NCBI GenBank assembly: GCA_016937995.1
Contig: JAFGVM010000082.1
Span: forward strand, 1-25,420
Direction: 5' to 3'
Length of the DNA stretch: 25,420 nucleotides
Source: Candidatus Delongbacteria bacterium
Lineage (GTDB): Bacteria > UBA4055
Part shown: positions 214-21,308 of the stretch, piece by piece
Layout: each line of letters begins with the position of its first letter
Numbering within the stretch: position 1 is the first letter of the stretch
The notes under the pieces: model-generated
The model's input: the letters and a program-made list of their open reading frames with translations, nothing else
Database searches by the model: none
Told to the model about the DNA's origin: nothing
Translations under genes and position numbers: made by a program

Positions 214-263
214 GGGCGTAACAAATTACGCCCCTACCTCTGACTTCTAACCTCTGACTTCTG
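214..263 (-). repeat. GTAG-headed REP-like palindrome plus 14-bp tandem repeat
   Basis: Read on the minus strand, a tandem repeat (ACCTCTGACTTCTA at 236-249 and a near copy at 250-263, given here in plus orientation) is followed by GTAG and then a hairpin with 8-bp arms GGGCGTAA/TTACGCCC (214-221 and 226-233). It begins about 5 nt after the stop codon of the outer-membrane barrel gene. Same architecture as the palindromes at 1594-1622, 2398-2433 and 12078-12125. Confidence 0.75.
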
Positions 264-1559: not shown

Positions 1560-1622
1560 AAGGGACGCAGATCTGCGTCCCTTACTTTTCCCATAGGGTC
1601 GAATAGATGCGTTCGACCCTAC
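1560..1622 (-). repeat. double REP-like palindrome (BIME-like) between LolA-like and barrel genes
   Basis: Two palindromes lie 10 nt apart. The first (1560-1583) is a perfect 24-nt palindrome with core GGGACGCAGATCTGCGTCCC. The second (1594-1621) has 10-bp arms TAGGGTCGAA/TTCGACCCTA and an 8-nt loop. On the minus strand the second starts with GTAG at 1622, only 2 nt after the stop codon of the LolA-like gene. Both could form strong RNA hairpins inside the operon transcript and might attenuate or protect it. Confidence 0.75.
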
Positions 1623-2397: not shown

Positions 2398-2433
2398 GGG
2401 GACGACTGATAGACGTACCCTACAAACTGATCA
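2398..2433 (-). repeat. degenerate GTAG-headed palindrome and short repeats after the RND gene
   Basis: On the minus strand the RND stop codon lies within a small repeated run (AGTGATTAGTGATCAGT), followed by GTAG and an imperfect hairpin GGTACG...CGTCCCC. The arms (2398-2404 and 2414-2420) carry one mismatch. It occupies the gap before the LolA-like gene and looks like a decayed member of the family at 214-237 and 12078-12103. Confidence 0.6.
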
Positions 2434-9775: not shown

Positions 9776-9940
9776 CTAAATTCCATTCATATCTTCAGAA
9801 TAGTTTTGCGACCATTTTAATGGATTATTTCTCATATAATCTCTAACATTATTCAATTCTTTATCACTTCGTATTATACGATCATAAAAACGAGTATGCC
9901 ATTGGAATGGAATATTGTTGATTGTTGAATATTTTTTTAA
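9776..9940 (-). pseudogene. remnant of a REP-associated tyrosine transposase (RAYT, IS200/Y1-like), C-terminal part only
   Basis: An open frame of about 54 codons without a start, ending in TAG at 9776-9778, reads LKKYSTINNIPFQW, then HTRFYDRIIRSDKELNNVRD, then YMRNNPLKW. The patterns NNIPF-x-W, RF-x-D-x-IIR-x-x-KEL and Y-x-x-NNP-x-KW are the hallmark of the C-terminal end of TnpA_REP/RAYT transposases. The N-terminal HUH catalytic motif and Y1 tyrosine region are missing: the frame runs into the 3' end of the propeller lipoprotein gene at about 9937-9960. The fragment is therefore dead. It is notable because the window also carries GTAG-headed palindromes, the known substrate type of this family. 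Confidence 0.78.
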
Positions 9941-11070
9941 TAAGAATATACTTTTAAATACTGATCTTTTCTGTTTATATAATAAAGCCTGTCTCTCTTT
10001 AAAATTATCTGCTCATCATAATTCACAAAATCATATCCCGGACAGATATCAAGTTTGATCTGCTGTAAGAATACTCCGTCTTTGAATAGATCAACAAGGT
10101 AATCAGTTTTGTTGGTCTCATCCCTTTTTATTGCAGATATTACCCATAATCTTTCATACTTATCATATCCCATCTGAATAATAGCACTTTTAAACTTCGA
10201 TTTGTTATTACTAAAATACCATCTATTATTGTATTCTTTTTCAAAAATAATTAATTCCTCTTCGCTGAAAGGGATCTTCGCGTAATTCTTCATGATAGAA
10301 TAAATGTGATTAGCTTCATGATCATAAACATTTATTTTATACTTGGAATCACTTTTTTCAGCAAAATATATCAGACTGTCAGATGTTGCATAAGCGGATA
10401 AGAACATGTCAAAGAAATTATATTTTTCTCTGTTAAATAGTATCTGTTTTTGAGCTACTTCTTTATAATTTGTAAAATTACTATTTTTAATTGTAAGATT
10501 GTAACTCATGTAAACTTCTTCACCTTCTTCTTTGTAATACACCTGATAACCGATTATTTTATCATCAGTCAATGCCTGATATCTTTCAAAAGGTCCTGGT
10601 TCATTGACTCTGTTTTTATAAAGATAATTACCGTCAGCATCAAATTTCAGCATATCCTGTACTATATAATCATCAACAATAACGGTATCTTTCAAAACCA
10701 TCATCCACCCCGTCATCTCAACTTCACCCGGGCCCTTTCCCCTGCCTCCGAAACTTTTTATGTAATTTCCATTACTGTCGAACTTTTTCAATGTATTGTT
10801 ACTCATATCAGAAATGTAAATATTGTTATTAATATCAACATCAAAATCGTTAAATCTTTTAATTATTCTTGTTGAGTCTGTTGTTGAATTATCTTCACAA
10901 TTTATCGTAAATAATTCAACTGGTTTTATCACGATATCCTTTGTAGATGGAATATTCTTATTTCTGTAGGTCTTCACACCGTTGATCACTTCAATAGTGT
11001 AGTTTTTCTCCTGAACAGTACATGACAACAGACTGAATAACACCGAGATGATCATAAAATGTTTTAACAT
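9937..11070 (-). CDS. 6-bladed beta-propeller lipoprotein
   Basis: 377-aa lipoprotein. I chose the ATG at 11070, not the longer frame beginning at 11133, because GGAG lies 8 nt upstream and the new N-terminus is a clean lipoprotein signal, MLKHFMIISVLFSLLSC, with lipobox LLSC and Cys17. The body has NHL/6-bladed propeller style: FDVDINNNIYISDMSNNTLK, then FDSNGNYIKSFGGRGKGPGE, the typical first blade of the family seen in Bacteroidota (BF3164/DUF5128-like). Probable role: surface or periplasmic binding, function unknown. The gene's 3' end abuts the decayed transposase, so its last codons (VYSY) may be recent. A 6-bp hairpin (AGATTG/CAATCT) at 11094-11109 lies in its leader. Confidence 0.82.
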   Translation of the reverse strand: MLKHFMIISVLFSLLSCTVQEKNYTIEVINGVKTYRNKNIPSTKDIVIKPVELFTINCEDNSTTDSTRIIKRFNDFDVDINNNIYISDMSNNTLKKFDSNGNYIKSFGGRGKGPGEVEMTGWMMVLKDTVIVDDYIVQDMLKFDADGNYLYKNRVNEPGPFERYQALTDDKIIGYQVYYKEEGEEVYMSYNLTIKNSNFTNYKEVAQKQILFNREKYNFFDMFLSAYATSDSLIYFAEKSDSKYKINVYDHEANHIYSIMKNYAKIPFSEEELIIFEKEYNNRWYFSNNKSKFKSAIIQMGYDKYERLWVISAIKRDETNKTDYLVDLFKDGVFLQQIKLDICPGYDFVNYDEQIILKRDRLYYINRKDQYLKVYSY

Positions 11071-11215
11071 GGTTTTGCTCCTGTGTGAATTTGAGATTGA
11101 AAACAATCTATAGTTATTTATTTTATAAGTCAATGCAAATATTTAGTGGAATATTGAAAAACAAAAACATATCTTATTGCTAGATTAGTTATTGTTTAAA
11201 AAAAGGAGAATTTAA

Positions 11216-12023: not shown

Positions 12024-12125
12024 TCCTTCCTCTCTTCCCTGCTTCCTGTAAATATTTTTTTTTGTTTAATTCGTTTTGGGGACGAAAAGAAATCGTCCCC
12101 TACGGTAAATTGTAAATTGTAAATT
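12024..12125 (-). repeat. composite repeat: GTAAATT tandem, GTAG palindrome, purine-rich tail
   Basis: Minus-strand order: three copies of a 7-nt unit (GTAAATT in plus sense, 12105-12125, overlapping the kinase stop codon); GTAG; a hairpin with 8-bp arms GGGGACGA/TCGTCCCC (12078-12085, 12093-12100); then an A-rich tract; and the purine run ACAGGAAGCAGGGAAGAGAG ending near 12024. The last part matches the sequence after the palindrome at 15262-15285. It fills most of the gap between the kinase and the coiled-coil gene; no other feature is seen there. Confidence 0.72.
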
Positions 12126-15261: not shown

Positions 15262-15330
15262 GTAGGGGCGTTATTTATAACGCCCAACCAATCAAAAAAT
15301 ATTACAGGAAGGTGGGAAGATAAAGAAGAT
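15262..15330 (+). repeat. composite repeat: GTAG palindrome plus purine-rich tail (plus orientation)
   Basis: GTAG at 15262 is followed by a hairpin with 9-bp arms GGGCGTTAT/ATAACGCCC and a 2-nt loop (15266-15285), then an A-rich tract and ACAGGAAGGTGGGAAGATAA. The tail matches the one in the inverted copy at 12024-12061, so the repeat unit extends beyond the hairpin. It lies in the 288-nt gap between the LVIVD gene and the EIIA/PII-like gene. Confidence 0.72.
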
Positions 15331-15400: not shown

Positions 15401-15434
15401 AAAAAAGTAAGGGAGCAAATATTTTGCTCCCTTA
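15401..15434 (-). terminator. Rho-independent terminator of the LVIVD/type IX cargo gene
   Basis: 12-bp arms TAAGGGAGCAAA/TTTGCTCCCTTA (15408-15419, 15423-15434) with a 3-nt loop, followed on the minus strand by CTTTTTT. It lies 24 nt after the stop codon at 15458. Its outer bases (AAGTAAGGGA) match those of the palindrome at 1560-1590, so a mobile palindrome may have been adopted as the terminator. Confidence 0.82.
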
Positions 15435-21161: not shown

Positions 21162-21260
21162 GGGGACGAATGGGAATCATTCCCTACAGATGTCATTGCG
21201 AATCCCGAATTATGGGATGTGCAATCTGTTTTTTCCAGGGGCGTTATGAATAACGCCCCT
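21162..21260. repeat. cluster of three palindromic repeats between the divergent peptidase genes
   Basis: 21162-21187 is a degenerate GTAG-headed palindrome on the minus strand (GTAGGGAATGATTCCC, ending TCGTCCCC). 21187-21228 is a different element in the style of the widespread TCATTGCGA...GCAAT repeats: CAGAT/ATCTG, ATTGC/GCAAT and ATCCC/GGGAT arms nested. 21237-21260 is a strong hairpin with 11-bp arms AGGGGCGTTAT/ATAACGCCCCT and a 2-nt loop, nearly the same core as at 15266-15285. They take up much of the 303-nt divergent gap. The rest holds the two promoters. Confidence 0.7.
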
Positions 21261-21308
21261 TCATGTTTTCTCCGTGTTGAATATTTAACATTGTTATGAT
21301 TTTATTCC

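Follow-up and report, generated by a model that had tools for sequence, protein, structure and literature searches.

The TnpAREP enzyme of E. coli is specific for GTAG REPs. An arrangement in which REPs lie in frame inside the transposase gene, between its HUH and Tyr motifs, is reported as unique to TnpAREP subclass 2.4 by Quentin et al. 2018 (PMC6006769). Di Nocera et al. 2013 (PMC3733652) described REPtrons and intragenic REPs and reported REPs in genes for DNA synthesis and repair.

The window analyzed here is a stretch of 25,420 nucleotides from a Candidatus Delongbacteria bacterium. It is contig C30 of genome G000 (2.75 Mb, 99 contigs), one of nine genomes compared (G000 to G008), of which G001 and G002 are congeners and G007 belongs to another genus. 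On its minus strand, a frame reads ...NNIPFQWHTRFYDRIIRSDKELNNVRDYMRNNPLKWSQNYSEDMNGI*, with the stop at 9776-9778. A sequence-only reading of the window had assigned C-terminal RAYT motifs to this fragment, and the NCBIfam profile NF047646 (REP-associated tyrosine transposase) bore this out: positions 104-133 of its 146 match the fragment (E 5e-6), and an unguided search of the own genome recovered it as G000:C30:9815-9904. It spans approximately the C-terminal third of a RAYT. Aligned with the RAYTs of the genus, 8 to 18 of about 33 residues are identical, and the motif residues IIR, Y, NP and W are preserved. Frame and alignment contain no HUH motif, the fragment beginning about a dozen residues ahead of the W motif. 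Hence, it is a relic and not a gene. A DNA search found no copies of it elsewhere in the own genome.

The relic starts near 9936, just past the stop codon of a propeller gene. We observed that the end of this propeller is conserved: the homologue G007:C79 ends in ...MKVYDY* and the window gene in ...LKVYSY*, at the same residue. Hence, the propeller gene is complete and the relic starts directly behind its stop; an overlap of the two was dropped, since the homologues show the propeller ending at its own stop. We attribute an FKS-like match upstream of 9937 to chance. Overall, it is very probable that the fragment is what is left of a RAYT (TnpAREP) and that the RAYTs of this lineage process the GTAG hairpins as their REPs.

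Six GTAG-headed palindromes had been listed for the window, and all lie exactly where they were placed (237, 1622, 2423, 12103 and 21187 on the minus strand, 15262 on the plus strand). They join a seventh hairpin and a decayed double-foot REP in the table below. Two REP families account for many such elements: the own genome has 69 strand-hits to family A (GTAGGGGACGR...YCGTCCCC) and 53 to family B (GTAGGGGCGT...ACGCCC), or about 50 distinct places each once both strands of these near-perfect palindromes are merged. For both families the reversed-pattern controls gave 0 matches in G000 and never more than one per strand in the other genomes. The pattern GTAGGGRCGN{3,22}CGYCCC was unsuitable (one match), since not all window REPs end in the CCC that it demands (several do not), and the family patterns were used. 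The window also holds perfect hairpins with no GTAG foot at 180-209 (AAAAAAGGCAGTT...AACTGCCTTTTTT) and 15408-15434 (TAAGGGAGCAAA...TTTGCTCCCTTA); the first is probably a terminator.

Table. Features of the window, with strand and the closest related element or supporting match.
Feature	Position	Strand	Remark
REP hairpin GTAGGGGCGTAATTTGTTACGCCC, family B	214..237	-	No REP at the matching place in related contig L112
Decayed double-foot REP AAGGGACGCAGATCTGCGTCCCTT	1560..1583		Resembles GTAGGGGACGCAGATCTGCGCCCCTAC inside RAYT G001:C357
REP hairpin GTAGGGTCGAACGCATCTATTCGACCCTA	1594..1622	-	No REP at the matching place in related contig L112
REP hairpin GTAGGGTACGTCTATCAGTCGTCCCC, family A	2398..2423	-	L112 has a REP of another family at the same spot
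RAYT/TnpAREP relic, C-terminal Tyr-helix part (FQWHTRFYDRIIRSDKELNNVRDYMRNNPLKW)	9776..9936	-	NF047646 match and alignment; HUH half and 5' region absent
Six-bladed beta-propeller gene, intact	9937..11133	-	PF17170; neighbor, outside the REP/RAYT system
REP hairpin GTAGGGGACGATTTCTTTTCGTCCCC, family A	12078..12103	-	One base from a REP inside RAYT G001:C193
REP hairpin GTAGGGGCGTTATTTATAACGCCC, family B	15262..15285	+	Identical to REPs within RAYT G002:C84 and just after it
REP hairpin GTAGGGAATGATTCCCATTCGTCCCC, family A	21162..21187	-	Differs at two bases from the REP within RAYT G000:C80 of the own genome
Seventh hairpin, family B REP GAAGGGGCGTTATTCATAACGCCC, foot decayed to GAAG	21239..21262	-	

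No REP flanks the relic in the window, where the nearest GTAG hairpin (12078-12103) is 2.1 kb away. Relic and hairpin are not physically associated, and the relic cannot be matched one to one with the window REPs. The association drawn earlier between the decayed RAYT and the palindromes therefore stands at the level of the system in the genus but not, given this gap, in the window itself.

The own genome has a single RAYT of full length, which scores weakly, another at the edge of a contig and three relics. The full-length copy (G000:C41) is a 205-aa open frame with a weak profile score, in which conserved residues are lost (IIRN to IIWN, NNP to SNV in the alignment). Truncated where its contig stops, G000:C80 retains the C-terminal half and, in frame with it, a REP. 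C81 and C56:24165 are the relics outside the window. None of these copies appears clearly intact, C41 having lost conserved residues and C80 being cut. Intact genes are present in the congeners (for example G001:C156, C214 and C335, and G002:C84 and C53), all scoring under the strict NF047646 cut-off (at most 57 bits against 80). Related RAYTs thus exist, intact in the congeners, while the possible active copy suggested earlier for the own genome is not borne out by C41 or C80. Used by itself, PF01797 overlooks the majority of the genus RAYTs and yields just an IS200-type TnpA in the own genome, whereas NF047646 finds the RAYTs. Matches of the hairpin type occur together with family A and B REPs in four members of the taxonomic family, G000, G001, G002 and G007, and these are the only members with such REPs; profile and pattern searches of G004, G005, G006 and G008 found neither NF047646 matches nor REPs of the two families. 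In G003 there is a single Y1 gene, of another type, and no family A or B REPs.

Where do the REPs stand relative to these genes? In nine of the ten genus RAYTs with a readable interval, a REP lies in frame between HUH and Tyr: C41 (foot decayed to GCAG) and C80 of the own genome, C193 (an inverted pair), C214, C335 and C357 of G001, and C84, C53 (inverted pairs in both) and C174 of G002. The exception, G001:C156, has no internal REP, and an inverted pair of identical REPs flanks the gene, one on each side. HUH-Tyr genes with REPs inside or on their flanks are therefore what the genus contains. Two stumps are broken at a REP, the N-terminal stump G001:C357 ending at a double-foot REP and the C-terminal stump G000:C81 starting at half a REP, which suggests, from these two cases, that RAYT genes break at their internal REPs. 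In the RAYT of the other genus, G007:C108 (L050, L145), the HUH-Tyr interval, where other RAYTs carry REPs, holds a run of short repeats (MRHDE, or SHHGA in another frame).

A 27-bp palindrome, GCAAAGGGTCAYTATNTGAYACTTTGC, lies upstream of RAYT genes. At three or fewer mismatches it matches 31 times in G001 and 25 times in G002 and not at all in the other seven genomes, and the reversed pattern gave zero matches; a variant is present in G000. The loci in G001, G002 and G000 are L115-L144, L148, L152, L155 and L175-L194 (for example L116, L152 and L143). With TA[TC]NTT, a -10-like box, at one identical offset in 61 of the 64 distinct sites, the palindrome resembles a regulated promoter more than a stray repeat. 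Reading TTGACA in this operator as a sigma-70 -35 box was dropped, its spacing to TATATT being just 12 bases; the claim is hence limited to the palindrome and, at a constant distance from it, a -10-like box. Where the 5' end of a RAYT gene can be read, the gene nearly always sits behind this palindrome. In the genus these number nine, relics included: C156, C214, C335, C357 and C407 (an N-terminal start at a contig end) of G001, C84 and C174 of G002, and C41 and the relic C56:24165 of G000. G007:C108, in the other genus, is placed likewise. G002:C53 differs in directly following a coding sequence that, judging by sequence, resembles KilA-N. No IS200-type TnpA was seen with the palindrome. From sequence, the gene that follows the promoter-headed RAYT G001:C335 (L087) appears to encode a UvrA-type ATPase.

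By Pfam, the other genes behind the palindrome comprise dprA (in two genomes), comM, radC, UPF0102, a UmuC-like polymerase and DUF3276; NgoPII-type and HsdR-like restriction proteins and DUF1016/YhcG nucleases; and KilA-N, ORF6N, Bro-N, RhuM, 23S IVP and HicB-like proteins and one phosphofructokinase-like gene. In other bacteria, dprA, comM and radC are members of competence regulons. The palindrome-headed genes are thus a candidate competence-type regulon of Candidatus Delongbacteria. It is a good possibility, which we hold tentatively, that the RAYTs of the genus joined such a regulon by insertion downstream of promoters of the dprA/comM/radC type, and that REP spread is timed to the single-stranded DNA present at uptake. 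Perhaps the palindromic promoter is instead a control site for DNA damage or for mobile genes in general, near which RAYTs merely landed? The UmuC-like polymerase, the restriction enzymes, the DUF1016 nucleases and the phage-type KilA-N, ORF6N, Bro-N and RhuM domains would fit this, but dprA, comM and radC speak against it. SOS control was rejected, since a domain search of G000-G002 found no LexA DNA-binding domain; another damage regulator is possible. We consider a damage or mobile-gene site a real if somewhat doubtful possibility. Literature searches for RAYTs with competence or dprA, and for KilA-N or ORF6N with dprA or radC, found nothing; as far as we could find, RAYT genes behind a promoter common to DNA-uptake and DNA-repair genes are new.

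The comM locus bears on the candidate competence-type regulon. Each of the three congeners G000, G001 and G002 has one comM. In G000 the order is operator, comM (L198, G000:C67), and in G002 it is REP, operator, comM (L116, G002:C4). In G001 (L085, G001:C156, 3173-3804) we observed the same REP as in G002, then the operator, a RAYT, a REP in the opposite orientation and comM. G001 and G002 align at 83% on either side of a 563-base block that holds just the RAYT and the second REP. Because the RAYT is missing at comM in two of the three congeners, its insertion would be a simpler reading than its loss. The operator precedes comM in all three, so the RAYT would have been placed behind a pre-existing promoter.

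Turnover is also apparent around the window relic. The syntenic place in G001 has the same antiporter, the same 111-aa gene and the same propeller; about 20 nt after the propeller stop comes a REP, followed by the 27-bp palindrome operator and an 83-aa gene. It is possible that this place was formerly occupied by a RAYT in both G000 and G001. The REPs headed at 237 and 1622 have no counterpart in the related contig JAQIDB010000105 (L112), and the spot of the one at 2423 is taken by another family; these are statements of presence or absence and not base-level comparisons, as intergenic DNA aligns poorly.

Might the fragment come instead from an IS200/IS605-type TnpA, the hairpins being unrelated to it? 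The own genome does have an intact IS200-type TnpA (G000:C56:32618-32959) that scores above the NF033573 cut-off. The relic, however, matches the RAYT profile, and searches of the relic itself with Pfam Y1_Tnp (PF01797) and the IS200 TnpA profile NF033573 found no match. It can also be aligned with those genus RAYTs that bear hairpins, and the repeats flanking the IS200-type gene are different (GTCCCTTAGGGACGACCTA). We therefore regard an IS200/IS605 origin as very improbable. At L001 1375-1930 (G000:C56), the intact IS200-type TnpA lies between the inverted repeats AAAGTCCCTTAGGGACGACCTA and TAGGTCGTCCCGAGGGGACTTT, a hairpin type unlike the GTAG REPs.

To score enrichment, we counted hairpins starting at or adjacent to each GTAG, and used as controls 11 other arrangements of the same letters and dinucleotide shuffles. 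At the stricter cut-offs, a 488-kb sample of own-genome stretches, of which one contig and the window make up 245 kb, contained 28 GTAG hairpins against 0.88 per dinucleotide shuffle (maximum 3 in 25 runs), and the window alone had 4 against 0.045 (maximum 2 in 200 runs). The other arrangements gave 1 to 8 hairpins each (leaving out TAGG, which overlaps GTAGG), though from more starting positions. The stems covary, with four of eight pairs changed on both sides. The hairpins thus have a 5' GTAG foot, repeat genome-wide and exceed chance, as GTAG REPs do. The comparison with shuffled controls proposed earlier accordingly came out as strong enrichment, and the genome-wide REP/RAYT system suggested from the window is supported by this together with the related RAYTs and the roughly 50 places per family. 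Neither of the two outcomes named earlier as refuting it, a lack of related RAYTs and a lack of GTAG enrichment, was observed. Nineteen of 27 distinct hairpins in the sample lie outside crude ORFs or only partly inside them, the ORFs making up 88% of the sample, and many are within about 20 bases of the 3' end of a gene. That the hairpins are unconnected with any transposase and simply serve as transcription terminators or form other RNA hairpins is hardly credible: lying mostly outside genes and often no more than about 20 bases from a stop codon, they could terminate transcription once there, but the one-sided GTAG foot is far above chance, and near-identical copies occur genome-wide and inside RAYT genes and turn over between related contigs. 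REPs could have a secondary role in termination.

For the decayed RAYT and its REPs, we envisage the following, by analogy with E. coli TnpAREP. The HUH-Tyr enzyme would bind a REP as a folded single strand, recognize the GTAG foot, cut there and move REPs to new sites. More than one REP family is present side by side, and the REPs within related RAYT genes match the dispersed families. RAYT genes would be gained and lost, leaving C- or N-terminal stumps, some broken at an internal REP, and the window piece would be one such C-terminal stump. The enzyme may be made when the cell runs a competence-type or repair-type program and single-stranded DNA is present. The relic and hairpins extend the REP/RAYT system, in its intragenic-REP form, to this uncultivated lineage. 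Of these findings the link to the promoter most deserves attention, as it bears on why cells keep RAYTs and when RAYTs act: a promoter common with dprA, comM and radC, together with an apparent RAYT insertion at comM, would make a tie of RAYTs to DNA uptake or repair testable.

How does this system compare with those described? Its HUH motif region aligns with that of E. coli TnpAREP (PDB 4ER8), although sequence similarity is marginal (E 0.8). As in Di Nocera et al. 2013 (PMC3733652), the GTAG hairpins lie mostly outside genes and near gene ends, each genome has several REP families, and GTAG repeats flank RAYT genes; in contrast to that account, whole RAYT genes here sit behind a promoter common with DNA-processing genes. 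The system also resembles TnpAREP subclass 2.4, as set out in the part of Quentin et al. 2018 (PMC6006769) used here: an HUH-Tyr protein, in-frame REPs between the HUH and Tyr motifs, and long REPs with a 5' GTAG and a G-C stem base, some of them double-footed. By the intragenic-REP hallmark, the RAYTs of the genus appear to match this subclass. Since intragenic REPs are already published for it, the arrangement is known; the system type is not new and the member is. Unlike subclass 2.4 as described there, this member belongs to a Candidatus Delongbacteria lineage and has a palindromic promoter common with dprA, comM and radC.
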